DNA of 22,905 nucleotides from a virus. Every line of letters starts with the position of its first letter. Positions within the stretch are counted from its first letter, which is position 1. Of the stretch, positions 4,224-22,905 are shown piece by piece. Under the pieces are notes generated by a model, which was given only the letters and a program-made list of their open reading frames with translations, searched no databases and had not been told where the DNA came from. The position numbers and the translations under genes are program-made. The stretch lies in IMG/VR virus record IMGVR_UViG_3300030098_002349, positions 1 through 22,905 of that record, one strand, 5' to 3'.

Positions 4224-4434
4224 AGTAAAAGCTAAGTTATTTTCACTAGAATACTATTTAAATAAGGATGGTAATGTGGAGATGTTATATGAAGCAGTAA
4301 AACCAGAAGATCTGGAAAGAGAACTTAATTCAGGTTTGCCCATGTATACTGGCACAAGTCAGGTTGCATCATTGCTTCGATATCTAAGGAAGATGGGGGA
4401 TGAGATAATTAAAGGAAGTGGTAATTACGTATGA
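4207..4434 (+). CDS. Small hypothetical phage protein, 75 residues
   Basis: The ATG at 4207 lies 17 bases inside the previous gene, and the stop overlaps the next start as ATGA (4431-4434). The protein starts basic (MQFKSKVKAKLFSLEYYL) and then becomes an acidic, helix-like segment (VKPEDLERELNSG) followed by SQVASLLRYLRKMGDEI. There is no signal peptide, cysteine or known motif. Coding is supported by the tight overlaps on both sides; the function is unknown. Confidence 0.6.
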   Translation: MQFKSKVKAKLFSLEYYLNKDGNVEMLYEAVKPEDLERELNSGLPMYTGTSQVASLLRYLRKMGDEIIKGSGNYV

Positions 4435-4754
4435 AGATTTTTTTATTACTATTTTTATTTATTAGCTCATTTGCACTAGCAGGAGAATGGAATGATAAGC
4501 CAGTTATGTGTGCAAAAGCTGAAGAGATATTTTACGTTATAAATGATAAAAGTGAGAAGATATCATTTGAAGCTAAACAGTTTACTAAAGTGCGTAATAA
4601 AAATGGTCTATCTGATATACCTGCGTATATACCCCTACAGGTATATATGAATAAAAAAACTGGAACATATACTATTGTAGAATATCATCCCAGTTATGAC
4701 ACGTATTGTGTTATCAGTTACGGTACAGAGTTTAAACAGTTTTTTTCTTTTTAG
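4431..4754 (+). CDS. Small secreted phage protein with Sec-type signal peptide
   Basis: This 107-residue protein begins with a short positive end (MK), a strongly hydrophobic core (IFLLLFLFISSF) and an ALA|GE cleavage site after residue 17, a clear Sec signal peptide. The mature part (about 90 residues) has two cysteines, C27 and C93, which could form one disulfide in the periplasm. Beta-rich segments such as YIPLQVYMN and GTYTIVEYHP follow, but I recognise no domain. It is the last gene of the + strand module and overlaps the preceding gene by four bases. A periplasmic or cell-surface role, such as changing the infected cell's envelope or excluding other phages, is an inference from export alone. 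Its 3' end overlaps the opposing structural operon by 23 bases. Confidence 0.75.
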   Translation: MKIFLLLFLFISSFALAGEWNDKPVMCAKAEEIFYVINDKSEKISFEAKQFTKVRNKNGLSDIPAYIPLQVYMNKKTGTYTIVEYHPSYDTYCVISYGTEFKQFFSF

Positions 4755-5067
4755 ACTTATCTCTTTGTGCGAGAGCTTGTTTCATTGACTCTTTTTTGTT
4801 ACCGTCTTTATCAAAATCTAAGTAGTCTGGTTTAGCACCAGTTTTGCCACCATTAGATTTTTTCTGTCTACCTTCAAACTTAGCGATAGCACCACCAAGA
4901 TTCATACCCATGCTGAATCTTTTGGGTTCAGTAGCACCCATGTTTTTTGCCATAGTCGTTGGTTGCACTCTGTTTTGTTCAGCGAGTCCACCCATAGGTT
5001 TACGTGGCATTGCCATACCACCACCATACATTTTGGTTGGTCGCTGTCCGTTATTGTATTGTTTCAT
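4732..5067 (-). CDS. Small basic Met/Gly-rich phage protein with EF-hand-like loop
   Basis: This 111-residue protein is the last gene of the structural operon. The N-terminal half is rich in Met, Gly and Pro (MYGGGMAMPRKPMGG), the middle is basic, and residues 80-93 read PDYLDFDKDGNKKE, with D84, D86 and D88-G89 spaced as in the first half of a calcium-binding EF-hand or dockerin loop. The end is lysine-rich (KSKKKKTV). Small proteins with this composition occur in marine phage structural regions, but no function is established to my knowledge. A virion-packaged or DNA-contacting role is inferred from charge and position. ATG 5067 is preferred over ATG 5070 because AAGGAG lies six bases before it. 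The gene overlaps the giant gene upstream and converges with the secreted-protein gene. Confidence 0.7.
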   Translation of the reverse strand: MKQYNNGQRPTKMYGGGMAMPRKPMGGLAEQNRVQPTTMAKNMGATEPKRFSMGMNLGGAIAKFEGRQKKSNGGKTGAKPDYLDFDKDGNKKESMKQALAQRDKSKKKKTV

Positions 5068-9871: not shown

Positions 9872-9876
9872 AATTT

Positions 9877-12012
9877 TTAAGTCTCTACGCCTGCTTCTTT
9901 AAGTAAAGCGTCAAGTTCTGATGGTGATAACACTTTACCAGTTTGTTTACTTATAGCTTTGTAAGTTTGATTATCAATAAGATGAGTTCCCCTATCAGTA
10001 TAAGCAGGCATACCATTTGGTAATTTTTTATTTACATCTACAACACTACTACGTGTTTCAGATCCTTTAGTAGTGCCTAACAACTCATTGGCTTTGGCTT
10101 TTCTTCTAATATCATTTACAACAAAAAGAGCATCAATTGTTCTAAATGTTTCTAGTTTTCGTGCGTCACCATCTTTAACAAAATCAAAAATTTGTTTGTT
10201 AACTGCTGCTTTTTCTTTAAATTCATCAATAGCAACTTGTATACCTGATAATGCTGATGCTTCAGTTCCAAAATTACCTGCAAGTTTTACAAATTGTTGT
10301 TCTATATCTTGGTTAGATAAACGACCTGATGGGTCTGCAGCTCGTGCCATTTGAAAAGCAAGAGTTATTCTCATGGCTTGCAATCTTCCTACTTTTTCAT
10401 CAAGTGTACCACCACCGTAACGTCTAGCGTCTGATATAGCTCGTTTTTTCAAATTATCCAAATAACCTTGAGTTAAAGTTTTATCGTTTTCTGCAGAGTT
10501 ATCATCTTCTGCTCCACTTGTTATAGTTAAACCTGATGTGTTTATATTCATGTTTCCATTTGAAAATACAGCAGATCCTGCGTCAATTGCTACCTCTTTT
10601 AAAGCTCTTAATTTTGATATAAACGCAGCAACAAATTCAGTCTTTATTCCTTTGCCTTCTACTTGTGCTAAACCTTTTCTTTCAAGAAGAAATTTCTCGA
10701 GAGCTATTTGAACTTTTTGTTGTTTTTGATAATTTTCTTCAGCTTCCACAAAAGATTTTTCTCTATCTTTTATGTCAGCAGTTCTTCCTGCAAAGTTTTT
10801 ACCTGCATAGCTTTTTACGGATTCATCAGATGGTTTTACGGCTCTACCAATTACCATACCCTCTTCAGAGCCAGTTGTTAAATGAGCAGAAACATCCATG
10901 TAAGGGGCCATAGCAAAAACAAGCTCGGTAAAATTTAAATTAGAATCGTTAAAAACTTGATTTATATCTGCAACAGTTCTAGCATCACCATAAGTAACCG
11001 TTCTATTTGGACTTAAATTTTGTATATTGGGTATCTTAGATCCCAAATACAAAGATGCTTTAAATACTTGTGCTACTCTTTCAGGTCTTGCTCCTGCTAC
11101 ATTGTAATATTTTTTTGCAAAAGTATCATATAAATCATCTTTTTTAACATTTAAACTTTTAGTCAATATGTTAACAGATTGGTCAAATTCAGGCTCTATG
11201 TTAATTATTTGATTAGCTACTTTGTTGTTAGATAGTTCTACTGAACCTGATGATACCGTATTGCTAACACTTTTATTTTTATTGTTAATGATTGTTTTAT
11301 TTATATCACTTTCAATATCTTTTTCACTTTTAACTCCTCTTTTTATTAAAGCATTTGCTAATGCTCTACCACCATAAAAAGGAGTTGGTAAATTATTAAA
11401 AAACTCTTGGGAGGGAAGATAGTTTGTTCCCTCAAAATTTTCTCCTTGTTCTTTACTTTCAGCAGATCTAACAAAACTTAAAGCTGAAAGATAATTTGAG
11501 TACATAGAAGCTAAATTTTCAGTAGAAATGTCTTTAAAATAATCTTTATTATTTCGTTTAGCTGATAAATAGTTTTGATCAATTTCTGCCATATAACGTC
11601 TAAAGCCGCTTATATCACCTTTATTTACATCTGCTTTAAACCTTACCTTTTGACCTAACGAATCTTTAATTATAAAATTGTAATCACCATTTAAAAAATC
11701 AATCGTGTTGTAATCTATTTTAGGTGGGTTGTATGGCTCTCCAAATTTGTAATTAGCATCATACTCTCTACGATCTTGAACAGATTGTCTAAAACTATCT
11801 CCTAGTGTAACATCACCTTTTGCAGCTTCTTTTTGTAGTGCAGTTACATCTCCTTCAAAACCTTTAATACTATTTAAAACTAACTGTTTTTTAAATCCTG
11901 ATTGTTGTTCTAACATTTTAGCTTCAGCAGCTCTTTTTGCCGCTGTGTTCTGCTTCATGTTCTCTGCGTCACCTTCAAAAAATCCAGTTAATCCTGCTAT
12001 CAAATTAAACAT
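9877..12012 (-). CDS. Putative internal virion/structural protein, 711 residues
   Basis: The start is joined to the upstream stop by TAATG (12012-12014). The protein begins MFNLIAGLTGFFEGDAENM, followed by a charged, Ala/Lys/Gln-rich helical region. The body is a mix of helix-like, Asn/Ser-rich and basic segments with no signal peptide or obvious enzymatic motif; only the first 13 or so residues are hydrophobic enough to touch a membrane. Its size and place directly before the 1606-residue gene fit the second large ejection-type protein of a short-tailed phage, comparable in position rather than in recognisable sequence to T7 gp15. This is inference from architecture; the protein could also be another minor virion component. 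Confidence 0.7.
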   Translation of the reverse strand: MFNLIAGLTGFFEGDAENMKQNTAAKRAAEAKMLEQQSGFKKQLVLNSIKGFEGDVTALQKEAAKGDVTLGDSFRQSVQDRREYDANYKFGEPYNPPKIDYNTIDFLNGDYNFIIKDSLGQKVRFKADVNKGDISGFRRYMAEIDQNYLSAKRNNKDYFKDISTENLASMYSNYLSALSFVRSAESKEQGENFEGTNYLPSQEFFNNLPTPFYGGRALANALIKRGVKSEKDIESDINKTIINNKNKSVSNTVSSGSVELSNNKVANQIINIEPEFDQSVNILTKSLNVKKDDLYDTFAKKYYNVAGARPERVAQVFKASLYLGSKIPNIQNLSPNRTVTYGDARTVADINQVFNDSNLNFTELVFAMAPYMDVSAHLTTGSEEGMVIGRAVKPSDESVKSYAGKNFAGRTADIKDREKSFVEAEENYQKQQKVQIALEKFLLERKGLAQVEGKGIKTEFVAAFISKLRALKEVAIDAGSAVFSNGNMNINTSGLTITSGAEDDNSAENDKTLTQGYLDNLKKRAISDARRYGGGTLDEKVGRLQAMRITLAFQMARAADPSGRLSNQDIEQQFVKLAGNFGTEASALSGIQVAIDEFKEKAAVNKQIFDFVKDGDARKLETFRTIDALFVVNDIRRKAKANELLGTTKGSETRSSVVDVNKKLPNGMPAYTDRGTHLIDNQTYKAISKQTGKVLSPSELDALLKEAGVET

Positions 12013-12551
12013 TATTCAGTCTCTTTTTTTGTAGTTAAAAAGTTTTCAGGTTTAGGTGTATCACCCTCACGTATACCCTTATTAATCTCTTCTCTTACAT
12101 AATTAAACATCGATGGATTATTTCGTTTCATCATCATTAAGAATGTTTCATCATCCATAGTGCCTTTTTCTAACGCATCGTCATTTTCAAAAAACCTATA
12201 GGGTATATTAGCTTCTTCTGCAATACTGGCTATGTAAAAAGCTAAAGGAGCTTTTATAAGTAGTCCAACATCAGGCCCAAATCTTCCTTCGTGAAATGCT
12301 TGTAATATATATCCTTCTACCATCATTTCAATAGATGCACCTGTTAACAACAACTTCACCATTTCAAGTTGTATTTTAGGTTGTTTTATTGAGTTTATAG
12401 CTTCTTGTAAAGCAATCTCTGGATCAACAACCTGTTGAGGTTTACCCCATGCCCATCTAGTATTGTCTTCTGTTAATGAATGTCCCGGAGGTGAGGGAGC
12501 AAAGTCGTCTTTTGCTTCTACACTTCCAACTCGTTCTCTTACTTCCATCAT
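12012..12551 (-). CDS. Conserved-type phage structural protein, 179 residues
   Basis: The start overlaps the upstream stop as ATGA (12548-12551) and the stop overlaps the next start as TAATG, so both ends fit the operon. The N-terminus carries a Pro-rich stretch, APSPPGHSLTEDNTRWAWG, a kind of linker I associate with marine phage virion proteins (P-P-G-x-S-L-T followed by W). The middle is helical and partly hydrophobic (LEMVKLLLTGASIEMMVEGYILQAF, then LLIKAPLAFYIASIAEEANIPYRFF); the end is acidic then basic. There is no signal peptide. The hydrophobic helices could contact membrane or other internal virion proteins. No biochemical function is assigned. Confidence 0.72.
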   Translation of the reverse strand: MMEVRERVGSVEAKDDFAPSPPGHSLTEDNTRWAWGKPQQVVDPEIALQEAINSIKQPKIQLEMVKLLLTGASIEMMVEGYILQAFHEGRFGPDVGLLIKAPLAFYIASIAEEANIPYRFFENDDALEKGTMDDETFLMMMKRNNPSMFNYVREEINKGIREGDTPKPENFLTTKKETE

Positions 12552-13003
12552 ACTGTATCTCTTTTTCTTCTTTGAATATTTGTCGATCCAATAGAAATGT
12601 TTGGTGGTGGGCCACCTTTATAATTTATTGCACTGTAGGGGATAAGTTGTGCAACTTGTTTATTTTGTGCATTAGATAATACTCTCATAGCATTTTGTAT
12701 ATCGGCATTTTCTGCACCAGTTATAAATCTCATGTTACCTAAAGGTTGAAAAGGTTTAGGGCGAGTAAGCTGACTAACAGATCTAGGTTGTCTAAACTCA
12801 GCAGTTTGAAATGCAGGTTTTTTACTCTTCTCTCCCACATCAAGATAAGCCTTTGCAGCACCTGCCATCGTTAAAAAATTATCTGCTTTAGATTTTGTAG
12901 GTTTTCCACCTTCAGGAAAGTCTGAGTATTTTGGATTTGAAACATTGTCATCACCAAAAAAATCTGAAGCATATTTAAGTCCAGTTACTATTAAATCAAA
13001 CAT
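12548..13003 (-). CDS. Hypothetical structural-operon protein, 151 residues
   Basis: It starts MFDLIVTGLKYASDFFG, a short amphipathic N-terminus much like that of the 711-residue neighbour (MFNLIAGLTGFF). It continues with Pro/Lys-rich, low-order sequence and ends in a basic tail (NIQRRKRDTV). There is no recognised domain. An AAGG a few bases upstream is a weak ribosome binding site. The gap to the upstream gene is nine bases and the stop lies inside the next start (ATGA), so it is firmly embedded in the operon. The shared MF-(N/D)-LI start suggests that two internal virion proteins use the same kind of membrane- or portal-contacting N-terminus; this is speculative. Confidence 0.68.
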   Translation of the reverse strand: MFDLIVTGLKYASDFFGDDNVSNPKYSDFPEGGKPTKSKADNFLTMAGAAKAYLDVGEKSKKPAFQTAEFRQPRSVSQLTRPKPFQPLGNMRFITGAENADIQNAMRVLSNAQNKQVAQLIPYSAINYKGGPPPNISIGSTNIQRRKRDTV

Positions 13004-13012
13004 TTTTATACC

Positions 13013-14359
13013 TTAACTTTTACTATTGTTCATCCACTGTGCTATCCAGTTACCAACCCCTGCAGCAAAGTTGTCTTTTTGTTGTTTATCATATATCTTT
13101 TCAGAGTTTGCAAATTCCATAGCCATTATACCAATTTCGTGTTGCCTTTGTAAATAAGATTCAGACTTTTGAAAGTTCCAAGATGCGTTATCTCTGTATT
13201 TTTGCCACAAATTGTTCAAAGCATTTTGACTAGCGTTGTATTGATTTTGTACATTTATTCTATTTGTTTCATTTTGTGTTGCAGTATTTGCTGTATTTAC
13301 TTGCCTTCTCCAGTTTACGTTAGACTGATCTATTGCGAACTGCATATTTGAATTGAATTTATCTCGTGAGTCTCTTAAAGTAGCATTAAATTGTGCTTGT
13401 GCGTTTGCTTGTCCTGCGTTGAATTGTGACATAGCAGATATTCTATTTGCATTTGCTGTTTCAACTTGAGCATCAAGCTCTGCAAAAAACTCCTCGACTT
13501 GTCTTTCATTTTTTGCGTTAAATTCTCTTCTTGCATTTTCTTGGGCTGCATCTTTAAATAGAGCTTGTGTTAGTGCATTAAAAGATATTGTATTTGATTG
13601 TTGTTGGGCTGATAAATTTTTAACATCTACTGTAAGCAAAGACTGAGCATTGGTTACTGCACCTTGTAATCTTGCAGATAAATTAGCTCTATCCATTCCT
13701 GCAACGGTAAGTGCATTTTGTAGTGCTGTCTTTTGTTTATTGTTTAAGTTTTGTAATTGAATTGTTGCGTATTTATTTGCATCTTGCACAGCTATATTTA
13801 TGCCTGATTCCATGACAGCTTGTGTCATTGCCGCTGCAGCCATACTTGATGCACCCATACCCCTTGCTTGCATAACGGCTGATACTTTTCGTACAGCAGG
13901 AGATGCCCAAGCAGGTAAAGGTTTACCATCTTCTATACTCGCCATCAACTCACCAAGTTGATATTGAACCGTTGCTTTTGGATCTAGCTCCTCTGTCTGT
14001 GCAACAGCCATAGCACCTTCACTAACTTCACCTTGAGGTACATCTGTTATAACACCTTTAGGATCTGTTATTTGTGCAGCTTGAGCTTGTCCAATATTAG
14101 GTGTTATTCTTTCAGTAGCAGAAATTTCTCCAAGATTAGGTGTTTGTTGAATAGGAGGTGTAACTTGTAAGTTTGTTGTGTCGGCTAGTGCTGTAGGTGC
14201 TAGAGGGTCTGTATCAAGTAATGTGCCTTGAGTAGGCTGTGTAGTTTCTGCTGTTACAGTTTGTAATACAGGATCTACTTGAGGTACACCTGCCTGTTGT
14301 CCTGCAGCTTGTTTACCTATTTCTTCTGTAAGTTGATCATCGGTTGTTATAGTAGCCAT
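13013..14359 (-). CDS. Gln/Asn/Ala-rich structural protein, putative internal virion protein (448 residues)
   Basis: The first ~130 residues are Thr/Pro/Gln-rich, acidic and probably disordered. A compact block with VMQARGMGASSMAAAAM at about residues 160-180 resembles a segment I have seen in marine phage virion proteins. From there to the end the protein is almost wholly helix-forming, very rich in Gln, Asn and Ala (NAGQANAQAQFNATL), as expected of a long rod or coiled coil. It ends in WIAQWMNNSKS. There is no signal peptide or enzymatic motif. The composition resembles ejection proteins that partly unfold on passage through the tail, and the position fits. The start is coupled to the upstream stop as TAATG. 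Confidence 0.7.
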   Translation of the reverse strand: MATITTDDQLTEEIGKQAAGQQAGVPQVDPVLQTVTAETTQPTQGTLLDTDPLAPTALADTTNLQVTPPIQQTPNLGEISATERITPNIGQAQAAQITDPKGVITDVPQGEVSEGAMAVAQTEELDPKATVQYQLGELMASIEDGKPLPAWASPAVRKVSAVMQARGMGASSMAAAAMTQAVMESGINIAVQDANKYATIQLQNLNNKQKTALQNALTVAGMDRANLSARLQGAVTNAQSLLTVDVKNLSAQQQSNTISFNALTQALFKDAAQENARREFNAKNERQVEEFFAELDAQVETANANRISAMSQFNAGQANAQAQFNATLRDSRDKFNSNMQFAIDQSNVNWRRQVNTANTATQNETNRINVQNQYNASQNALNNLWQKYRDNASWNFQKSESYLQRQHEIGIMAMEFANSEKIYDKQQKDNFAAGVGNWIAQWMNNSKS

Positions 14360-14592
14360 TATTTATCTCTGCTTAACATTTTATCTATTTTATCTTCTAC
14401 CCTATGTAGTGCGGCCATGACTCTATCCATGTCTTCTTTTACATCATCTCGTCTGGCATACTCTTCACGAGTCTTATTTAATAATATCTGCAACCTTTTT
14501 ACCTCTTGAAACATCTTGTTGAACGCCCAACCAAATGGTACAACGACCAATGTAAGAATAACATTCCAAAATAACATTGCATCTATTTCCAT
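14359..14592 (-). CDS. Small single-pass membrane protein with coiled coil (possible holin or spanin-like)
   Basis: This 77-residue protein has one N-terminal membrane segment (about residues 7-25, LFWNVILTLVVVPFGWAF) and then a charged helical region with heptad-like spacing (KRLQILLNKTREEY, VMAALHRVEDKIDKML). It is fused by one-base TAATG overlaps to both neighbours. Small membrane proteins of this shape in phage late operons are often holins, spanin components or proteins anchoring virion parts. One N-in or N-out helix followed by a soluble coiled coil does not distinguish these. No endolysin is seen beside it, which weakens the lysis reading. Confidence 0.7.
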   Translation of the reverse strand: MEIDAMLFWNVILTLVVVPFGWAFNKMFQEVKRLQILLNKTREEYARRDDVKEDMDRVMAALHRVEDKIDKMLSRDK

Positions 14593-15320
14593 TACTTACT
14601 TTCTAGTACTGCTATTCTAGCTTCTAATTCTTGTATTGTTTTAACAAGTAGAGGTACAAGTTTACTTTGGTCTATGCCTTGAGGCATGATTTTACCATCA
14701 CTATCTACTGCATCTTTTTCTCCAGTAATTGCTTCAGGCACAATACTTGAAACCTCATGTGCTAAAAAGCCATCTACTACAGTATTTGTTTTATCTGCTA
14801 TAAAATTAAACCTTTTAGGTTTTAGTTTTTTTATTCTATCTGTTGCATCTGTTATATCAACAATGTTTTCTTTGAGTCTATAATCTGATGATGTATTAAA
14901 ATGAGTATTAGAACTAGATACAGTAATACTTCCATTTAAAGCACCTGCCCTATAAAAGTGCATAGCAGTGCCTGAACCTGAAAGATTAATATTTAAAGTT
15001 GTCCCATCAAAAGTAAGACCAGACTCACCATTAAGACCATCAGAGCCTGTTGCAGTAACAACCCTATTGTTTGAACCATTAGATAAACTTACACCTGCAC
15101 TAACTGTATCAAAACTTAGTGACCCACTTCCATCAGTTTTAAAAAATTGACCACTACTGCCGTCTGAAGTAGGCAGGTTAAATGTAGCACCCCCTGATTT
15201 TATAATTAATTTAGAGCCATCTGATTTTATAGATTCATTAGTGTCCACAAATTTTAATTCTGTATCACTATCAAGTGTTAAATTAGCAATTTGATTTGCT
15301 AAATCTGCTGCTTTTGTCAT
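14592..15320 (-). CDS. Tail fibre with C-terminal Peptidase S74 intramolecular chaperone
   Basis: The first ~140 of 242 residues are Ser/Gly/Thr-rich beta-fibre sequence. Residues 145-240 form a Peptidase S74 domain: SDYRLKENI, KPKRFNF, VDGFLAHEV and a C-terminal coiled coil (LVPLLVKTIQELEARIAVLE). In this family the domain helps the fibre trimerise and then cuts itself off with a Ser-Lys pair; S145 and K150 have the five-residue spacing of S911/K916 in the K1F endosialidase. The mature fibre would therefore end just before S145. It probably acts as a receptor-binding or fibre-tip protein. It is coupled by TAATG overlaps to the genes on both sides. The first ~20 residues (ADLANQIANLTLDSD) may be an attachment helix. 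Confidence 0.92.
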   Translation of the reverse strand: MTKAADLANQIANLTLDSDTELKFVDTNESIKSDGSKLIIKSGGATFNLPTSDGSSGQFFKTDGSGSLSFDTVSAGVSLSNGSNNRVVTATGSDGLNGESGLTFDGTTLNINLSGSGTAMHFYRAGALNGSITVSSSNTHFNTSSDYRLKENIVDITDATDRIKKLKPKRFNFIADKTNTVVDGFLAHEVSSIVPEAITGEKDAVDSDGKIMPQGIDQSKLVPLLVKTIQELEARIAVLESK

Positions 15321-15898
15321 TATTCACTCTCTTTCGGAAAATCATATATAGGTGGATTATCTCCTGTAGGTTTACCATCACTATCTATAGGCATATTAAA
15401 CAACGCCATGAACTGTTTTAAGTTAGAACAATCATTAATTTTAGTCTCTATTGTATTACAGGCAGTTCTTACACTGTCTCTATACTTTGTTATTTCGTCA
15501 GGTATAGCAGTTCCCTTTTCTGCTTTACGTGTAATCATCCAATCTGTCTTAGATAATAAATCATTAGCAGTTGTTTTAGTTTGTCTTATCCAAATAGTTT
15601 TAAGACCTTCGTTGATAAGTTTTGTTTTACCATCTTGTTTATATAATTGTTTTCCGTCATTGTCTTTAGCATCTTCATCTACTAATTTTTTTTCTATTAA
15701 AGAACCATCTGTTTGTCTACCCCAATAAAATCTATTATCAAAAGATGCTTCAGATTTAGGTGGGTCTTCCCATGTTAAACCTACTGACTTTTTATATGTA
15801 TCTGACCATATCATCCAATTAGATGGATGTACAATATTATTATCGTCAGTCCAACCTTTTCCTGCTTTTATTGTCCTTCCGTTATGCTTCCACGGCAT
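15320..15898 (-). CDS. Tail fibre assembly/tail assembly chaperone-like protein
   Basis: The 192-residue protein starts with a Trp-rich region (MPWKHNGRTIKAGKGWTDD, then HPSNWMIWSD). The C-terminal half (about residues 105-180) reads RQTKTTANDLLSKTDWMITRK followed by EITKYRDSVRTACNTIE, the R-x-x-LL-x-x-TDW ... YRxxLR pattern of phage tail-fibre assembly and tail assembly chaperone proteins. Such proteins help fibre proteins fold or join the virion, and the placement between two fibre genes supports this. A good ribosome binding site (GGAGAT) precedes ATG 15898. The Trp-rich N-terminus has no known match here and could be what binds its partner fibre. Confidence 0.68.
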   Translation of the reverse strand: MPWKHNGRTIKAGKGWTDDNNIVHPSNWMIWSDTYKKSVGLTWEDPPKSEASFDNRFYWGRQTDGSLIEKKLVDEDAKDNDGKQLYKQDGKTKLINEGLKTIWIRQTKTTANDLLSKTDWMITRKAEKGTAIPDEITKYRDSVRTACNTIETKINDCSNLKQFMALFNMPIDSDGKPTGDNPPIYDFPKESE

Positions 15899-15907
15899 TC
15901 CTATCTC

Positions 15908-18298
15908 CTATCTTGCATTACTAAATTTAAATGGCTGTTCTGCAAAAGCCATATAGATAAATGAATAACCACTTCCATTAAAACCACTTCCAGATGACCT
16001 TAATTTAAAACCATTTGATAAACCATCAACAAAAGCTAATGTACCCTCTGCACCACTTGTATTTGGTTGTAAATAATTGCCCATAACATTAAAAGTATCT
16101 CTTTTTATATCTACTAAATTCCAAGGCTCAGCATTAGAAGATGACTTAACTAAAATCCAAGCAGGTCTAAAACCAGTATAGACAAATGTGCCATCTGTTG
16201 AGCCATTGCCAGTATAACTGCCAAACTTAGAGTAGCCTTCTATCTCTGCGAAACAATAGGCAACATAATCATTATCAAAATTATTATATGTTCCTACAGT
16301 AAAAACTGAAGATGTAGGTGCTGTATCATTATGAAAACCTGAATCATCTGACCTTGCATTTTGAGCATTTAACAAAATACCATAATCTTCTGGTGCAGAA
16401 GCATCTATATCTGCATGATACATATGCCAATTTCCAGTTGCATCTCTATTTTTTGGTATAATAACTTTTGGTACTGCACCTAATCCATGTCCTACTGTTG
16501 CTTGACTATCCCCTTCTCCATTCCATAAAACAATACTAAATCCAGCAGTTTGATTTGCTTGTACTGTTGATGTTATTGTTCCATCTGAATTACTGCTAGT
16601 TGTTCCACCATTTGCTTTCCAACACCACCCAACGAAAGTGTAACCACTTCCATTAGTTTGTGCATTCGTGCCTACAGAAAATCCATCTGTATTACCAAAT
16701 GTTAGTCTACCAGATGTTGTACTTTCTTGTTGCGTCAAATTTGAGTAAATGTCTGTATTATCTCCCCTAGAACTATCATAAATATAATGTGCATTGTCAT
16801 GACTTCTCATTTTTGTCCATACCCAATCAGCTTCAAAGCCAACACTTATATCCCTTGCTGTTGCATTGCCACTCCAAAGAACTGTATTAAAATGGTCATC
16901 TGCTTGTGTATCTTGATTTGGACTTATTGTAGTGTCTGGTAGGTTAGATGAGCATAGTGCCAAATGATTACTAGGGACTGAATAGAAAAAATCGCCTTGA
17001 CCATTTGCATCAGTATTGCCTTGAGCAGTTTTAGCACCTGCAAAACTTGAGTCCTGTCCTGCATTAAGAATCCAACTAGAACCATTATAACAATCAAATA
17101 TAGGCAGATATGTGCCTGAAGGTAAACTTGAATACGCAGTTCCTTGAGATGAATTATTTTTATAAAAAGTTAAAGTATCATTATCTAAATCTAATGCTAC
17201 TCCAATAATATCTCCGTCAGCGTATGAAGCACCATAAGAAGCACTAGAGTTACTATTATATTTATTTCCATTCCTAAGGTACACATATTCATTTGAAAGA
17301 ATACCAGAATCACCAGTTGATGTGGGGTCAAATGGAGTGCTTACTACTCCAGTATTTAAATATGGAGAGCCACCTGCTAAAACTTCCCAATACCATTTGC
17401 CACTAGAAACTCCAAAAGTACCTGTCATTATTCCAGATACAGAAGCAGAAGCACCAACTGCTTTTAAATTACCCTCACTAAATGTTGCACTACTATTAGA
17501 CCTTTGTTGAAGATGATTTAATGTGGCAAAATTATTCTCAGGACTATCAGGCACAACATCTGTAGAAGCTAGACTACTCGGTGAATAATCATTTGTTCCA
17601 TCTGTACTATTTGCATTATTTCCTATATCACTACTATCTGCAAAAGTTAATCTAAATCCATTTGTTCCATAGGTAAGACCTGATATTTCTTTTGGTATCC
17701 ATACACCATTTTTTGTTTCACCAAAACTAGAGGGTGTTAATGCACTACCATCAATAAAATTATACTCAGCTAAATATCCATCAAACTGATAACCACTAAA
17801 ATTCGCTAAACCACCTACAGTGTGTATAACTGTATTGTTCCAAGCATAATTTTGATTTGCAGGAAAACTAGAATAAAGAACTTGTAAGGTTTGCTGTGTG
17901 CCATTTATATAAATTTTAACTCTGTCCGTGTCAGTGCTTTCAGTAACATCTACAGCTACAACGACATGAAACCAATTAGTTTTATCCCTAAATACTGCGT
18001 TCGTTCCAATAGTATGTGCATTACCAAAACTAATTGATAATCTATCACTAGTGTCAAAGTATATAAAATCTGAATAACTTGAAGCAAAAGCACCTAAAAG
18101 AACAGAACCACCTGCATCAGAATCTCCACTTCTTTTAACCCAAGTGCTAAGAGTCCAAGTTTTTCTGTTACCTGCACTAGATGGAGTTCTAGTCAATTCT
18201 GCACCATCTGCTTTATTAAAACGTAAAGATTGGTCTATAACATCATTATAAAAACCTGTGCTTGGGTTTGCGAACCAAAATGAATTTTGACCTGTCAA
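15908..18298 (-). CDS. LamG-SPRY tail adhesin with three C-terminal repeats (796 residues)
   Basis: Three regions can be seen. Residues ~20-200 form a LamG/concanavalin-like sandwich (SLRFNKADGAELTRTP, WTLSTWVKRSG, WFHVVVAVD, VKIYINGT, DGYLAEYNFIDG). Residues ~290-415 form a SPRY-like domain (GKWYWEV, GDIIGVALDLDNDTLTFYKN). The C-terminal ~320 residues hold three diverged repeats (near 488-562, 607-686 and 710-790), each with a W/V-rich strand, an aromatic middle and an NGSGY-type strand ending in an aromatic F-(W/F)-A run. LamG and SPRY domains bind glycans or proteins, so this is probably a receptor-binding fibre. The start is TTG, supported by GGAGA at 18306-18310 with a seven-base spacer; no equally good ATG follows. 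It is three bases downstream of the previous stop. Confidence 0.85.
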   Translation of the reverse strand: MTGQNSFWFANPSTGFYNDVIDQSLRFNKADGAELTRTPSSAGNRKTWTLSTWVKRSGDSDAGGSVLLGAFASSYSDFIYFDTSDRLSISFGNAHTIGTNAVFRDKTNWFHVVVAVDVTESTDTDRVKIYINGTQQTLQVLYSSFPANQNYAWNNTVIHTVGGLANFSGYQFDGYLAEYNFIDGSALTPSSFGETKNGVWIPKEISGLTYGTNGFRLTFADSSDIGNNANSTDGTNDYSPSSLASTDVVPDSPENNFATLNHLQQRSNSSATFSEGNLKAVGASASVSGIMTGTFGVSSGKWYWEVLAGGSPYLNTGVVSTPFDPTSTGDSGILSNEYVYLRNGNKYNSNSSASYGASYADGDIIGVALDLDNDTLTFYKNNSSQGTAYSSLPSGTYLPIFDCYNGSSWILNAGQDSSFAGAKTAQGNTDANGQGDFFYSVPSNHLALCSSNLPDTTISPNQDTQADDHFNTVLWSGNATARDISVGFEADWVWTKMRSHDNAHYIYDSSRGDNTDIYSNLTQQESTTSGRLTFGNTDGFSVGTNAQTNGSGYTFVGWCWKANGGTTSSNSDGTITSTVQANQTAGFSIVLWNGEGDSQATVGHGLGAVPKVIIPKNRDATGNWHMYHADIDASAPEDYGILLNAQNARSDDSGFHNDTAPTSSVFTVGTYNNFDNDYVAYCFAEIEGYSKFGSYTGNGSTDGTFVYTGFRPAWILVKSSSNAEPWNLVDIKRDTFNVMGNYLQPNTSGAEGTLAFVDGLSNGFKLRSSGSGFNGSGYSFIYMAFAEQPFKFSNAR

Positions 18299-18301
18299 GT
18301 A

Positions 18302-18679
18302 TTATTCTCCATCAAATACCACCCATCCTTTAGTATTGTCTGCTTGATACACATCTTCATCCCATACATAAAGTTTACCATCTTCAGGATAAGATATAGG
18401 TGGATTCCATATCCATGAGTTACTTCCTAATGTCCAACTAGCATGAGGTTGTGGTGCATGAAATACATCACTCTTAGAATTATATATGTACCCAACACCT
18501 GCATAATTAGCTCTTAAAGGAGTTCCGTCATCAGGGTTACCATCTGCATCGTGGTGAACACCTCCAAATGTATTATAAGAAGTCTGCACCCAAGTTCCTT
18601 CTTGTGTATCTATAAAGTCTTGTTCAGCAACAATTACGTCTGTTACTATATTGTTTACTATTTTTGCAAAATGTGCCAT
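18302..18679 (-). CDS. Conserved marine-phage tail-associated protein, 125 residues
   Basis: The protein begins MAHFAKIVNNIVTDVIVAE and continues with TWVQTSYNTFGG, an aspartate-rich loop (DADGNPDDG), LRANYAGVGYIYNSKSDVF and a Trp-rich segment (PHASWTLGSNSWIWNPP). This order, beginning MAHFA, then a WVQTSYN block, then NYAG.GY.Y and a PxPxSW block, is familiar from small virion proteins of cyanophages and other marine phages next to tail fibre genes, whose exact role I do not know. Its length is typical for that group. It sits between two large adhesin genes (gaps of 15 and 3 bases), which suggests it connects or decorates fibres. There are no enzyme motifs or signal peptide. Confidence 0.75.
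   Translation of the reverse strand: MAHFAKIVNNIVTDVIVAEQDFIDTQEGTWVQTSYNTFGGVHHDADGNPDDGTPLRANYAGVGYIYNSKSDVFHAPQPHASWTLGSNSWIWNPPISYPEDGKLYVWDEDVYQADNTKGWVVFDGE
18306..18310 (-). promoter_or_regulatory. Ribosome binding site for the LamG-SPRY adhesin (TTG start)
   Basis: GGAGA on the minus strand overlaps the end of the upstream gene and lies seven bases before TTG 18298, which fixes the non-ATG start. Confidence 0.65.
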
Positions 18680-18694
18680 TTATGCCTTTTAATA

Positions 18695-19537
18695 TTAACT
18701 TGGTGCTAAAGTACCTGATGAGGTAAATGAGTGTATAGTGTTACCACCACTTGAAGTTACAGTTCCACCTGTATATTTTTGACTACCTGCATAAGATATT
18801 ATAACGATACCAGAGCCACCATTTCCACCACGAGTGCCTCCACCTCCACCACCACCTCCAGTGTTGGCTGTTGCTGCACCTCCTGTGCTTGCACCATTAC
18901 CTGCTCCACCACCACCTGTTGTTGCAGAAGTTGAGCCACTATTTCTTCCTGAACCTGAACCACCACTAGCACGAGTAACAGAAGAACCTGTTATTGAGTC
19001 TGCTTGACCTGCTCCACCTGTTCCACCTTTACTGCCATTTGGAGCGTCACCACCGACTCCACCTTTTCCACCACCACCCCCACCGGGATAGTTACTGCCA
19101 TCAGTGTAGCCACCACCACCATCATTACCTTGACCACTAACACCTGAACCACCTGATGATTGAGCATAGTTACCACCACCACCAGAGCCACCATCTATTG
19201 AGTTTCCTGATGCAATAGTTGCGTGTTGTCCTGCTCCACCACGAGTAGATTCAATAGTTGTAAAACCTGTTCCTGCTATGCTAGAAGCAGTACCATTTAA
19301 TCCTGATTGAGGATAGTTTCCACTCTGTCCACCACCTGCACCTACAGTTATAGTCATGCTTGTGTTAAGAGGTAAGGCTGCTTGACCTTCTTCGGCAGAG
19401 GTTCGCATACCACCTGCACCTCCTCCACCTCCACCACCTGCTCCACCACCACCACCTGCGATGACGAGAAAGTTGATGAGTTGTGACCTACTAGGGTGAG
19501 AGCCGAAGCCATTGATGTTATATCCAAAACCTGTCAT
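18695..19537 (-). CDS. Glycine-rich tail adhesin (probable polyglycine-II fold)
   Basis: This 280-residue protein has a short ordered start (MTGFGYNINGFGSHPSRSQ) and a strand, INFLVIAGGGGGAGG. Some 200 residues of glycine runs follow, separated by Ser, Asn, Thr and Ala. It closes with beta-like sequence (GSGIVIISYAGSQKYTGG, then HSFTSSGTLAPS). The LVIAGGGGGAGG ... GGSGIVIISY frame is typical of glycine-rich phage fibre domains; in the phage S16 gp38 adhesin such runs fold into packed polyglycine-II helices presenting variable loops to the receptor. The serine/asparagine loops between runs would be the receptor-contacting parts here. It is not collagen-like, as there is no regular G-X-Y period. 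The start overlaps the upstream stop (TAATG). Confidence 0.85.
   Translation of the reverse strand: MTGFGYNINGFGSHPSRSQLINFLVIAGGGGGAGGGGGGGAGGMRTSAEEGQAALPLNTSMTITVGAGGGQSGNYPQSGLNGTASSIAGTGFTTIESTRGGAGQHATIASGNSIDGGSGGGGNYAQSSGGSGVSGQGNDGGGGYTDGSNYPGGGGGGKGGVGGDAPNGSKGGTGGAGQADSITGSSVTRASGGSGSGRNSGSTSATTGGGGAGNGASTGGAATANTGGGGGGGGTRGGNGGSGIVIISYAGSQKYTGGTVTSSGGNTIHSFTSSGTLAPS
19411..19461 (-). repeat. GGN-codon low-complexity tract (polyglycine)
   Basis: A run of GGT, GGA and GCA codons encodes the first glycine tract of the adhesin. Similar GGN-rich tracts recur at about 18823-18862 and 19057-19083. Such repeats are prone to slippage and recombination and could vary between related phages. 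Confidence 0.6.
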
Positions 19538-20394
19538 TATCCATCATTCTTTGCATCAGTAGTAAAGAATAGTTTAATTCCTAATAATCTTGCATCACCA
19601 CTTTGATTATCTGCAGATACATCTCTCATAACTTGAAAGAAAACAAATTCACTTGTTGAAGGAGAACCTGCTATTGTTACTGCTCCACTTTCTGCAGTTA
19701 CATTTATATCATTAGAAGTACCACTGTGAGCTTTAGCAGTTGCTACTACGTTTGTTCCAAAAGCAGTATCACATGAATCATTGTCTGCTACTGCTACACC
19801 TGATAGTCCCCAAGCAACTGTTCCTGTATTTGTTCCTGTTACAGTAAAGAAGGCTTGAAAGGTAACTGTACCTTCGTTCCATGAATCAGGAAAAGCTACA
19901 GTAAACTGTGCATTTTCATCTGAACTTGCATCAAAGTCTAATACTTTTATTTCAGGACCATTTGATAATTCTACTTGTGCCAAAGAAGCACAACCATTAG
20001 TTGTGTTAGGATACATAGCTGCTGCAGGTACATATATTGTTTCTTTACCTGCTACTTTAACTGCAGAACTACTTACAGTTATATCAGAATCAAAATTACC
20101 ACCACTTGTCTTACTTACTGTATCTGCTACAGAAAAAACATCATATACTGTTATAACTATGATATCATTTTCAGAAGCAGCAGTTCCTAAAACAACTGAT
20201 GTGCCACTTGTTGATGTATAATCTGCAGTGCCTAGTAAAACACCATTTTGGTATACATCTATATAGTTTGTATCAACATATGAAAGAGTTTGTCCTTCAT
20301 TACTTGAACCACTAAAAGTTGTTTGACTTGCAGTGGCAGTATACGTATGTACTCTTCTTACTCCGTTACTTGGTGATGTTCCAATATAAGGCAT
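19537..20394 (-). CDS. Tail fibre/fibre-associated protein with MPYIGT N-terminus
   Basis: The 285-residue protein begins MPYIGTSPSNGVRRVHTYTA. An ASQTTFSGSSNEG segment and a YIDVYQNGVLLGTADYTS segment follow, the second typical of marine phage fibre modules. The rest is Ser/Thr/Val-rich beta sequence, including a block (VTFQAFFTVTGTNTGTVAWG) with a jelly-roll feel. There is no enzymatic motif. The N-terminal M-x-YIGT-x-PS peptide is shared with the gene just upstream and may be an attachment tag. GGAGA upstream of ATG 20394 is a good ribosome binding site, and the stop is coupled to the adhesin start by TAATG. The role as a virion fibre or adapter is inferred. Confidence 0.75.
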   Translation of the reverse strand: MPYIGTSPSNGVRRVHTYTATASQTTFSGSSNEGQTLSYVDTNYIDVYQNGVLLGTADYTSTSGTSVVLGTAASENDIIVITVYDVFSVADTVSKTSGGNFDSDITVSSSAVKVAGKETIYVPAAAMYPNTTNGCASLAQVELSNGPEIKVLDFDASSDENAQFTVAFPDSWNEGTVTFQAFFTVTGTNTGTVAWGLSGVAVADNDSCDTAFGTNVVATAKAHSGTSNDINVTAESGAVTIAGSPSTSEFVFFQVMRDVSADNQSGDARLLGIKLFFTTDAKNDG

Positions 20395-20407
20395 TAATTA
20401 TTCTCCG

Positions 20408-20902
20408 TTACGCATCTGCAAAAGCTAATTGTGCTGCACCTAAATGTATCTTGCCATCGGCTTGTACAAAGTAAGGCACTACATCTATTGAGTTAGCTGC
20501 AGTGCTAAGTGTGATTGCAGTTCCACCTGCAGTAAAATATTGATCTGCTGCATGAGATAATGTTCTACTACCTGTACCATCTTGTATAAATACAAATATA
20601 CCTGACTGCCCTGCAACTTCATCTCCGGGGTCTGTTAATGTAACATTACCTGTTAATGTAAATACAAAATTTGTGTATTGTGAGAAATCAGGTGCAGTGT
20701 TTCCACTCACACTTGTATTAGTATTTGTATTGGGTACATTACCTGCACCAAATGTGATAGCAGTTCCTGTTCCTGCATCTGATGCGATACTGTCTAATGC
20801 GATACTACCTACGTTAGTAATATTACCATCATTAAAACTACCACTATCTACAGTAAAACTTGTAGGAAAAACGTCACTAGGTTTTGTACCAATGTATCCC
20901 AT
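20408..20902 (-). CDS. Small fibre-associated protein with MGYIGT N-terminus
   Basis: The 164-residue protein begins MGYIGTKPSDVFPTSFTV and then has a Thr/Ser/Gly-rich beta body, including ITNVGSIALDSIASDAG, FVFTLTGNVTLTDPG and GIFVFIQDGTGSRTLS. The last of these recalls segments that precede C-terminal beta domains of tail fibres. There is no catalytic motif or membrane segment. ATG 20902 is preceded by GGAGAT with a six-base spacer and shares one base with the upstream stop (TAATG). The similarity of its first residues to the 285-residue neighbour, together with the short length, suggests an accessory fibre or spacer subunit. Confidence 0.72.
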   Translation of the reverse strand: MGYIGTKPSDVFPTSFTVDSGSFNDGNITNVGSIALDSIASDAGTGTAITFGAGNVPNTNTNTSVSGNTAPDFSQYTNFVFTLTGNVTLTDPGDEVAGQSGIFVFIQDGTGSRTLSHAADQYFTAGGTAITLSTAANSIDVVPYFVQADGKIHLGAAQLAFADA

Positions 20903-21258
20903 TATGTTATCTCCATGTAACTTAATATAACTGAAACTTTATCTGCTACAGAACAGTCTACACTTATCCTATCATCAGCATTTAAGATAATTTTATTACC
21001 TGACATAATCTCTACTGTTGAACCAACAGGTATTGGTATGTCCTTTACGAGATGTGCTGTAGTATTTGTTGTTGAACCATCTTGATTTGTTGTACTTACT
21101 AATTTAACAGAAGCAGTAACTTGTGATGTGTGTACGTTTGCTAAACTTAATCCTATGATAACTGCAGTGCGATTATCAGGGCAATCGTAAATCTCTTCAA
21201 AAGTTCCTGCACTCGCAGGTGCAACATCTCTTGTGGTTACTTTGAATATATTTGCCAT
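20902..21258 (-). CDS. Small virion protein of the tail fibre cluster, 118 residues
   Basis: The protein is predicted to be mainly beta-strand: AVIIGLSLANVHTSQVTASVKL, HLVKDIPIPVGSTVEIMSG, NKIILNADDRISVDCS and VSVILSYMEIT. The IPIPVGS-(T/S)-xEI-x-(S/A)-G-xK-I-x-L block is characteristic of a small structural protein found in marine phages beside tail fibres. No precise function is known to me. It starts four bases after the stop of the large repeat fibre, with AGGATAA as ribosome binding site, and its stop is coupled by TAATG to the next gene. It is likely a fibre-attachment or baseplate-type component. Confidence 0.75.
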   Translation of the reverse strand: MANIFKVTTRDVAPASAGTFEEIYDCPDNRTAVIIGLSLANVHTSQVTASVKLVSTTNQDGSTTNTTAHLVKDIPIPVGSTVEIMSGNKIILNADDRISVDCSVADKVSVILSYMEIT

Positions 21259-21262
21259 TTTA

Positions 21263-22905
21263 TTATCCTAACGCTATTGCAAGTGCAGTTGGGTCATCCG
21301 TACTAAAACCTGCACTGGTTAAATATGTTTTTACATCTGTCAATGCTACTTGTTTCATCGTACCATCATCATTTGTAACTAATCTGTCTGCATCCTCTAA
21401 TGTTGTAGAAGAAGCAGCCGTGCCACCATCCATGATGTTTAGCTCTGTTGCTGTTGCATCTACTGCAGCCAATTTTGTGAAATCAGCTTGTACTAATCCT
21501 GATACACCATCTAGTAGGTTAAGTTCTGCTGCAGTTGATGTAATAGAAGTTCCTGCTATTTGTAATGTTGTTGCATTTACTTCGCCACTAGAACCATAAA
21601 TAACTGCTTTGCTGTTTACTATTGTACCTGCAGATGAACCATCAACTAAGTTTAACTCTGAAGCAGTCGATGTTACTCCATCAAGAATGTTAAGCTCAGA
21701 AGCCGTAGATGTAACGCCATCTAATATGTTTAATTCTGCAGTTGAAGATGTTACACCGTCAAGTAAGTTTATCTCTGTTGCAGTTGCAGTAACTGCTACA
21801 TCTTCGTTTATCTTTGGACTTGTTAATGTTTTATTTGTTAATGTAGCAGTTGAACTTGTTGAAACTAATCTAGCATCACCACCTGTACTTGGTAGTGTTA
21901 AAGTATTTGATGCAGCTTCAGAATGAGGTGCTGCTATTACGATCTGTCCATGTGAATTTGCTTCACAGTTAAATTGTATAGCTCCTTGATTAGTATTACC
22001 TTTTACAACTACCTTTCCTGTTCCGTTTGGTGCAAGTTCAAGATCAGCATTTGATGTAGTAACGATATCGTTACCGTTTAAATCTAAATTACCACCTAAT
22101 TGTGGTGTGGTATCTTCTGATACGTTTGATATAGCACCTGATGTAGCAAGTCCTGATACGATTGCACTTCTTGTAATTTTTTTAAGACCCCCACCTGAAG
22201 TATCTACTGCTAAGAATACATCATCATTAGCCACTGTAGATATTTCTGATAAGTCACCCACTGCTACGGAGTTAAAGTTTGTGCCATCTGCAACAAGTAA
22301 ATTACCTGCAGTGTTTGTACCCATAGTGATGTCGTCACCTGCAACTGTCAAGTCACCTGTGATACTTAAATTTCTAAAACCACTTATGTCTTTATTAGAA
22401 TCTACTATAACTGCTTTTGATGCAGATACTGTACCTGCTGTTATACCGTCTACTAAATTAAGTTCTGATGCAGTAGATGTAACACCATCAAGTATATTTA
22501 GTTCTGCACCAGTGGCAGTAATTGCTGTGCCACCTAATGTTAATGATCCTGATACATCTAAATTACCGTTGAGATCAACTGTTGTGGCCGCAAGCTGTAT
22601 CTCTGTATCTGCAACAATATCTAGTTGTCCATCCGTACTGGAATTGATGTATATTGCTGTATCTCTGAATTGTAGCTTCTCTGTAGAAGCGATAAGTATG
22701 TCGTCACTAAACTCAAAGTAATCTTCATCTTCCATCCATTTTAGTACACCGTCTGATGTTTCACCATCAAAGGTAATTGTTATATCTGTTCCTGCTGTCC
22801 CTGCACCGAATGTAAGTGTGTTGTCTAACAGCTTACTTATAGGGCCACCCTCATTGGCTGTGCCATCATGGGTGTGTCCTGTAGTTGCTTGGAAGGCTGC
22901 TAATA
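21263..22905 (-). CDS. Repeat-containing tail fibre protein (5' truncated by the window edge)
   Basis: The frame is open through the right edge, so about 546 residues are visible and the true start is outside; the ATG at 22735 is internal (DGVLKWMEDEDYFEFSDDI reads through it). Upstream residues include FQATTGHTHDGTANEGG and ITITFDGETS, motifs common in marine phage fibres, where the former often follows a conserved N-terminal attachment region. The body has 13-residue repeats of the form ELNILDGVTSTAS (residues 1-2 usually EL or EI, ending ATE or ASE), six in two tandem blocks and two isolated. Between them is a conserved-looking beta region (GNLDLNGNDIVTTSNADLEL, then GTGKVVVKGN) followed by STSSTATLTNKTLTSPKI. 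The last residues are compact (FSTDDPTALAIALG). It is probably the main, trimeric tail fibre. Confidence 0.88.
   Translation of the reverse strand, partial: LAAFQATTGHTHDGTANEGGPISKLLDNTLTFGAGTAGTDITITFDGETSDGVLKWMEDEDYFEFSDDILIASTEKLQFRDTAIYINSSTDGQLDIVADTEIQLAATTVDLNGNLDVSGSLTLGGTAITATGAELNILDGVTSTASELNLVDGITAGTVSASKAVIVDSNKDISGFRNLSITGDLTVAGDDITMGTNTAGNLLVADGTNFNSVAVGDLSEISTVANDDVFLAVDTSGGGLKKITRSAIVSGLATSGAISNVSEDTTPQLGGNLDLNGNDIVTTSNADLELAPNGTGKVVVKGNTNQGAIQFNCEANSHGQIVIAAPHSEAASNTLTLPSTGGDARLVSTSSTATLTNKTLTSPKINEDVAVTATATEINLLDGVTSSTAELNILDGVTSTASELNILDGVTSTASELNLVDGSSAGTIVNSKAVIYGSSGEVNATTLQIAGTSITSTAAELNLLDGVSGLVQADFTKLAAVDATATELNIMDGGTAASSTTLEDADRLVTNDDGTMKQVALTDVKTYLTSAGFSTDDPTALAIALG
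21642..21797 (-). repeat. Four tandem 39-bp repeats in the tail fibre gene
   Basis: Four consecutive 39-base units (starts 21642, 21681, 21720, 21759) each encode a 13-residue unit related to ELNILDGVTSTAS. They are diverged at the base level, mostly at wobble positions, but conserved in protein, so selection acts on the fibre structure rather than recent slippage. Single related units also lie at 21429-21467 and 21510-21548. Confidence 0.8.
22449..22526 (-). repeat. Two tandem 39-bp repeats in the same fibre gene
   Basis: Units starting at 22449 and 22488 match the 39-base period of the block at 21642-21797, more than 600 bases away in the same gene, and encode ELNILDGVTSTAS-like and SELNLVDGITAG-like residues. 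They flank the non-repetitive middle of the fibre. Confidence 0.75.

Follow-up and report, generated by a model that had tools for sequence, protein, structure and literature searches.

A small jelly-roll protein and a shared N-terminal peptide in the hypervariable adhesin cassette of a marine phage related to HMO-2011

We analysed a linear IMG/VR virus fragment of 22,905 bases (record IMGVR_UViG_3300030098_002349, positions 1 to 22,905, the whole of which is called the window here) whose minus strand carries a run of adhesin-type genes beside a main tail fibre. The run corresponds to a region that is hypervariable across relatives. It includes a gene for a protein of 118 amino acids (aa), termed c19, followed by genes whose products begin with a short peptide, M-x-Y-I-G-x-x-P-x-x-x-F (the YIG tag). 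The presence of c19 and that of the tag are coupled in sequence, the same tag heads many different protein bodies, and it is constrained at the level of the protein. We consider it probable that the region is a swappable receptor-binding cassette in which c19 mounts the tagged adhesins on the virion. New here, on sequence comparison, is the succession of c19 and an M-x-Y-I-G gene, with one tag heading at least 20 unrelated bodies. Neither a YIG-type tag nor c19 as an adaptor is described in the literature that we found, although most subscription papers were out of reach and novelty is therefore unproven; a search with the letters of the motif returned unrelated words only.

Coupling of c19 and the YIG tag

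In the window, the 164-aa and the 285-aa proteins encoded after c19 both begin with M-[GP]-Y-I-G-T, a start shared by many cassette genes of the relatives fetched first. Aligning 78 distinct N-termini gives the consensus M-[PA]-Y-[ILV]-G-[NQK]-x-[PAV]-x-x-x-F. Homologues of c19 occur in 29 records of named phages, where they are annotated as virion structural proteins. Gene neighbourhoods were inspected in 13 of these records as well as in the HMO-2011-like ones fetched earlier, and c19 directly precedes a tagged gene in HMO-2011, HTVC115P, HTVC103P, CRP-9, HTVC026P, HTVC106P, HTVC035P, S-TIM66, S-BM3, CRP-143 and YerA41; Melnitz-3 has two copies of c19 and two tags. Rhizobium phage RHph_TM39, reached via the 285-aa protein, likewise has c19 and then MSYIG. 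In HTVC010P (L028 8376-8690) a TTG start 9 nucleotides (nt) past c19 opens a YIG-tagged protein of 212 aa, and the annotated start of this gene (AGE60295) is probably too late. Overall, a tagged gene follows 17 of the 18 c19 genes of the discovery set (alignment A4).

A strict regular expression was fitted to the discovery set and fixed before any held-out locus was retrieved. Three further scans then yielded 236 new loci, one of which (L351) is an IMG/VR copy of HMO-2011, a member of the discovery set, and two (L194 and L259) come from the contigs of the previously seen L101 and L039. Among 236 held-out strong c19 genes, 21 with less than 285 nt downstream were left out, leaving 215 that could be tested, including L235, which lacks a downstream frame and was counted as a miss. 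The next gene carries the strict tag in 157 of these 215. As a control, the genes that come after other frames (100 codons or longer) of these loci carry it in 69 of 1791 cases (Fisher p about 5e-127, without correction for relatedness). When the genes are clustered at 70% identity, for which 214 were used, the tag is next in 70 of 89 clusters. The held-out test and its control rule out a chance origin of the pattern.

The bodies behind the tag are diverse. Greedy clustering of residues 13-100 yields 31 homology groups, 20 of which carry the strict tag; single-linkage clustering was dropped because repeats merged bodies into a giant group (13 groups). The conservation is that of a peptide: in the Gly codon of the tag the first two positions are invariant while the third varies freely (1.39 bits; 110 distinct sequences). 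A DNA word used in recombination was thus rejected as the nature of the tag, since third codon positions vary with the amino acids constant.

Presence and absence were compared in 48 complete cassettes, defined as loci that span the interval from a tubular-B-like gene to the gene of a conserved 448-aa protein (near-identical pairs included; 45 distinct c6 rows). Strong c19 is present in 12, and 11 of these have a tagged gene, nine of them at least two. Among the 36 cassettes without c19, no genuine tagged gene is left after exclusion by eye of internal starts, and one by the automatic filter; the excluded matches (L171, L175, L174, L008, L115) are GTG, TTG or ATG starts inside other genes. Mapped on the tubular-B-like tree, c19 changes between presence and absence 8 times, on well supported branches in at least 6 cases, and c19 and tag change together on at least six branches, with 6/6 independent pairs agreeing in the majority of random pairings (p 0.031). 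This tree was built quickly and has some long branches and partial rows, and the exact counts are accordingly soft.

Searches of whole records found strong c19 in 10 of 16 named phages, a weak homologue only in HTVC033P, CRP-345 and CRP-1, and no homologue in HTVC011P, CRP-810 and EBPR siphovirus 2. Matches to the tag pattern in these six phages without strong c19 number three in HTVC033P, one in CRP-345 (inside gp42) and two in HTVC011P, at a distance from fibre genes, and none in CRP-1, CRP-810 and EBPR siphovirus 2.

We also note proteins more distantly related to c19. A divergent homologue (E 1e-7 to 1e-9) in HTVC033P (L026 16662-21127) and L109 (5546 onwards) is followed by proteins that start with MANGGIIG, MPRTNGGIIG or MPRRTGGFIG; these GGIIG/GGFIG-type starts are perhaps a second variant of the plug. 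Weakly c19-related proteins occupy other slots in HMO-2011, CRP-1, CRP-9 and CRP-345, near record position 49-51 kb, and precede a gene starting with MAITTAMC in six further loci (L150, L166, L171, L175, L182, L191). No YIG gene lies beside the weakly related proteins of other slots in the loci looked at.

Gene content and variability of the cassette

The left part of the window encodes metabolic functions on the plus strand, including a ribonucleotide reductase (1801-3738) and a fragment of a Cas4-like exonuclease, and virion genes occupy 5070-22905 on the minus strand. The 448-aa protein matches HMO-2011, HTVC033P, CRP-1, CRP-345 and other phages (27 records), and the order of fibre, cassette and the proteins of 77, 448, 151, 179, 711 and 1606 aa is that of L019. 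By these protein matches the phage, a marine virus of bacteria, is related to the HMO-2011-type group and not to T7. DNA polymerase and other core genes were not found within the annotated part of the fragment, and the 1606-aa protein of the internal virion block (5051-9871) is matched neither in the phage collection at 1e-5 nor by a PHROG.

Read 5' to 3' on the minus strand, the cassette runs from the main fibre through c19 and the proteins of 164 and 285 aa to the Gly-rich protein, the 125-aa protein, the LamG-SPRY-DUF7483 protein, the 192-aa protein, the S74 protein and the 77-aa protein (Table 1). Neighbouring genes are separated by -1 to +15 nt, which fits a single transcription unit, and every frame is intact and closely packed. 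The region 4300-22905 shows no excess of promoter-like sites over chance (54 versus a shuffle mean of 69).

Table 1. Features of the cassette and its 3' flank in the window.
Feature	Position	Strand	Evidence or remark
Main tail fibre (repeat fibre), at least 546 aa	21263-22903	-	N-terminus beyond contig end
c19, 118-aa small jelly-roll virion protein, proposed adaptor/socket	20902-21258	-	homology and AlphaFold2 model
YIG-tagged 164-aa protein, first gene after c19	20408-20902	-	starts MGYIGTKPSDVF; phrog_4757 E 6.6e-8
YIG tag of 164-aa protein, 12 codons	20867-20902	-	tag consensus
YIG-tagged 285-aa short fibre/adhesin	19537-20394	-	starts MPYIGTSPSNGV
YIG tag of 285-aa protein, 12 codons	20359-20394	-	tag consensus
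Gly-rich (polyglycine) adhesin, 280 aa	18695-19537	-	Pfam Gly_rich_2 E 1.1e-12
Probable fibre-assembly chaperone of Gly-rich adhesin, 125 aa	18302-18679	-	phrog_7759 E 2.1e-26
LamG-SPRY-DUF7483 lectin-like adhesin, 796 aa	15908-18298	-	Pfam profiles
Probable tail-fibre assembly protein, 192 aa, pairs with LamG protein	15320-15898	-	phrog_4912 E 4.4e-5
Short fibre, 242 aa, C-terminal S74 intramolecular chaperone, N-terminal MTKAADLA tag	14592-15320	-	PF13884
Small membrane-type protein, 77 aa	14359-14592	-	conserved 3' border of cassette; cluster c9 in relatives
448-aa conserved protein, internal virion block	13013-14359	-	anchor for locating relatives

The initial annotation had described a battery of several adhesin designs in one run, and all four designs that it named are indeed present on the minus strand at 14592-22905. 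It had set down the remaining genes as small accessory proteins. Small genes do exist, but those of 164 and 285 aa encode probable adhesin-type proteins and two others look like assembly chaperones. In our favoured explanation, which we hold with moderate confidence, the cassette thus comprises one main fibre, at least five more adhesin-type proteins (164 aa, 285 aa, Gly-rich, LamG-SPRY-DUF7483 and S74) and two assembly-chaperone-like proteins.

The main fibre has seven repeats of the ELN-DG type and matches a 'putative structural protein' of HTVC115P (42%). Judged from relatives, which start with MG-x-x-YTRQSSYTDGDVITAAHTNDEFNQLLAAF where the window begins at LAAF, about 29 N-terminal aa are missing; the Pfam scan gave no match to PF03906 (the N-terminal domain of T7 gp17-type fibres), the N-terminus lying off the contig. 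The 285-aa protein consists of the tag, a domain at residues 7-96 and a C-terminal domain at 116-284, and its C-terminal part matches gp74 of EBPR siphovirus 2 (47%). Glycine makes up 35% of the Gly-rich protein, which has 7 runs of at least four Gly and matches Gly_rich_2 (PF21722) with 48.9 bits against a cut-off of 24.3; it has no phage match at 1e-5, and its sequence search of the Protein Data Bank (PDB) was empty. The SPRY (E 3.7e-15), Laminin_G_3 (E 9.7e-10, when that segment was scanned separately) and DUF7483 (E 1.7e-112) profiles all exceed the Pfam cut-offs in the 796-aa protein; DUF7483 had been overlooked earlier, and the SPRY part matches solved SPRY domains (ASH2L, E 1e-8). Peptidase_S74 (PF13884) is found at residues 145-198 of the 242-aa protein (E 9.1e-11, 42.3 bits against a cut-off of 22), and this protein is a predicted carrier of an intramolecular chaperone; its PDB sequence search was empty.

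A different N-terminal peptide, M[ST]KAA[ED]LA (window 15285-15320), heads the S74 protein and, in total, 45 genes of the fetched loci. These fall into 9 greedy groups, one of them spurious (L027), which leaves about 8 unrelated bodies including that of the S74 protein. In L237 this peptide is fused to sequence from another cassette family.

Two small genes resemble assembly chaperones. The 125-aa type comes after the Gly-rich gene in the window. In HTVC033P it is flanked by two genes with similar N-termini, and in Melnitz-3 a Gly-rich gene of 324 aa precedes it. In its AlphaFold2 model (mean predicted local distance difference test score, pLDDT, 82) the N-terminal domain has a single PDB match with Z of at least 2, namely chain a of 7ypx (Z 5.1, 1.7 A over 50 residues); Foldseek gave E 0.51 for the model. 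The entry 7YPX is the gp24-gp25 complex of phage Pam3, whose gp25 has 162 residues according to the available text (PMC9608196), the length of chain a. There, the TNF-like and Gly-rich domains of gp24 are described as being held by residues 1-55 of gp25, a beta-sandwich. The model of the 125-aa protein (moderate confidence) has no helix past residue 25 and thus no C-terminal alpha-helical trimerisation domain, and the protein was not filed as a member of the Tfa/gp25-type chaperones, as that domain is absent from the model. By mass spectrometry of Pam3 virions gp24 was detected and gp25 was absent, as reported in the available text (PMC9608196), and by analogy not every small cassette gene may encode a protein that enters the virion. 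The 192-aa type follows the LamG gene in five relatives (L002, L003, L004, L008, L017) and in the window; its match to phrog_4912 (tail fibre assembly) covers 44 residues and is weak profile evidence, and it has no Pfam match. PDB sequence searches were unconvincing for c19 (best E 0.38), the 192-aa protein (0.43) and the 125-aa protein (0.2).

Relatives were gathered via the 448-aa and the tubular-B-like proteins. The slot between the two genes measures 2157-11531 nt in the 48 complete relatives and at most 4165 nt in 24 of them; the interval of the window is about 8.6 kb, an estimate, as the upstream gene lies off the contig. Cassettes differ even between close sisters on the c6 tree (L019 and L017, L127 and L174): that of L019 holds a dozen small genes, that of L017 the LamG gene and its partner only. 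A comparison across relatives, which the initial annotation had proposed as a check for gene swapping, therefore bears the swapping out. The region is, as part of the explanation that we find the most plausible, a hypervariable receptor-binding cassette that is flanked by conserved genes, for the tail on one side and for the internal virion block on the other, and is probably replaced wholesale by recombination. The comparison with the single fibre of T7 is not apt for a phage allied to HMO-2011, nor is 'far more than one fibre' unusual in this group, given the slot of HMO-2011 with about 15 small genes.

The cassette of HTVC033P contains 2OG-Fe(II) oxygenase-type genes (L026 14481-16595), a gene of the same cluster (c33) being found in L009 and L010. 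In the pelagiphages HTVC115P (L024 13511-13960) and HTVC026P (L029 4295-4708), genes annotated as toxin-activating lysine-acyltransferase lie among structural genes.

Proposed placement of c19 and of the tagged proteins

The AlphaFold2 model of c19 (35 sequences; mean pLDDT 91) is all-beta. Its nearest solved chains by VIA Z are HDT2 (9.6), the trimeric cement protein of KHP40 (9.4; 3.2 A over 104 residues), a Bacillus endospore appendage pilin (9.2) and the turret of HFTV1 (8.8), with many tied. Foldseek gave template modelling (TM) scores up to 0.58 among the matches listed, and several BFVD matches (TM 0.84) bear the name virion structural protein. Neither T4 gp10 nor an Ackermannviridae spike is among the matches listed, which is no evidence against such a kinship. 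As modelled, c19 is a small jelly-roll-like structural protein, and the fold says no more than that, in particular not where the protein is located.

Sequence fusions give the strongest hint that the tagged proteins are part of the fibre or tail. In the main fibre of CRP-1 (1080 aa), residues 622-703 match residues 7-96 of the 285-aa protein. The corresponding matches of the 285-aa protein are residues 10-120 to 446-570 of 674 in the main fibre of HTVC011P and residues 7-91 to 757-841 of 1252 in that of CRP-810. All three phages are without strong c19; the domain would thus be either built into the main fibre or, where c19 is present, supplied separately with a tag. In the mechanism that we propose, c19 would assemble on the tail or the main fibre and serve as a socket into which proteins with the N-terminal M-x-Y-I-G-x-x-P-x-x-x-F would plug, so that bodies could be exchanged while the docking stays constant; the two assembly-chaperone-like proteins would each come after their client. 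We infer from sequence patterns the contact between c19 and the tag, the position on the tail, the coexistence of the adhesins on one virion and any branching. For the branched apparatus suggested by the initial annotation this means support in part: the pattern of tag and adaptor fits a branched or multi-adhesin design, the branching itself being conjectural.

Several observations weigh against a docking role of c19. The window is a single incomplete contig of an uncultured virus. The rule that a tagged gene follows c19 is violated in S-SRM01 (the one exception in the discovery set), L089 and L093. The strict tag is absent from 58 of the 215 held-out next genes, 26 of which fit a looser expression (at least 3 spuriously) and 32 do not; look-alikes among the misses begin with MPLIGN, MANPYIGN, MSKDRFIGK, MSEYSIGK or MGTIGRK, and true exceptions with MALSTIDTNQ, MITTPEFQG or MPISV. 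A scan of bacterial genomes gave three loci with the strict tag in one (L433 no tag, L434 MPSYQG, L435 MSYLG). In addition, c19 and tagged genes adjoin, so that linkage alone could produce part of the association, and the fold neighbours of c19 include capsid cement and turret proteins, which would allow a location on the head. The adjacency is at the heart of one alternative, that c19 and the tagged gene are merely co-inherited neighbours in a hypervariable adhesin island and the tag has another task, for instance in starting trimerisation, without binding c19. With gaps of about -1 to +21 nt between c19 and the first tagged gene and with whole blocks being swapped, linkage is to be expected. 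Nevertheless, the tag stays constant while the body changes (20/31 body groups), 9 of the 12 cassettes with c19 (strict expression) and none without it have another tagged gene, one that is not adjacent to c19, and the pairing recurs in records of Kyanoviridae, Autographiviridae, Kleczkowskaviridae and the HMO-2011-like group. We therefore regard simple co-inheritance as unlikely, if still to be reckoned with.

Decoration of the capsid, by c19 as a cement or turret protein together with tagged head fibres, appears more doubtful still. The Z scores of c19 to the KHP40 cement and the HFTV1 turret speak for it, as does the occurrence of divergent c19-like families in other slots of related phages. 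However, nucleoplasmin, C1q and pili score similarly, leaving the fold silent on location, the c19 gene comes after the main fibre gene in HMO-2011-like phages, and main tail fibres of other phages incorporate a domain of the tagged 285-aa protein. That this is an ordinary one-fibre phage whose virion receives no more than one or two of the proteins, the rest being recombination remnants or alternatives, we consider very improbable: in half of the complete relatives the interval does not exceed 4165 nt, and most of the cassette is hence dispensable in the group, but the frames in the window are all intact and tightly packed, chaperone-like genes remain beside their clients, and c19 homologues are annotated as virion structural proteins.

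If the tag does dock on c19, this would explain how receptor-binding proteins are swapped freely in dominant ocean phages. It would also provide a simple sequence rule for unannotated adhesins in metagenomes, namely a conserved N-terminal peptide beside a recognisable small protein, and would open the assembly of multi-adhesin tails to tests with just two purified proteins. More tentatively, and here we lean slightly towards doubt, c19 and M-x-Y-I-G-x-x-P-x-x-x-F may form a portable plug and socket that lets unrelated tailed phages of different virion types exchange adhesin bodies without rebuilding the tail, with M[ST]KAA[ED]LA as a possible second such plug.

Comparison with known systems

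Among the closest known systems is HMO-2011 (GU557055), in which the gene order around the cassette is the same. Its slot contains c19 and two genes with the YIG tag; small genes there number about 15, many of them annotated as tail fibre or tail-related. Its adhesins are different, the annotation showing no LamG-SPRY, Gly-rich or S74 gene in the slot. The passages on tails and structural genes in the available text of Qin et al. 2022 (PMC9038755), on HMO-2011-type phages, are silent on the cassette. According to the available text of Mizuno et al. 2014 (PMC3909814), the identifiable genes most frequent in hypervariable regions of marine phages are those for tail fibre, C1q-like, lectin-like and carbohydrate-binding proteins, an adhesin-type content like that of the cassette in the window; what that text describes for these metaviromic islands is under-recruitment, not an adaptor or a common N-terminal tag. 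Together with the slot of HMO-2011, these islands make the adhesin battery as such a known kind of region, whereas the docking principle is possibly new.

For individual components, Pam3 gp24-gp25 (PMC9608196, available text) offers a Gly-rich adhesin with its own chaperone, whose chain a in 7ypx the N-terminal domain of the 125-aa protein resembles; the latter differs in lacking, in the model, the C-terminal helical trimerisation domain. The nearest mechanism that we found, by analogy and as far as the available text goes, is that of the gp10-like XD domains in the branched tailspike complex of Ackermannviridae (PMC11414711), where several adhesins are mounted via conserved jelly-roll N-terminal parts and have variable C-termini. 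In those spikes the jelly-roll is covalently included, whereas c19 would be a small protein in its own right and the stretch conserved at the N-terminus of the adhesins would be only about 12 residues long.

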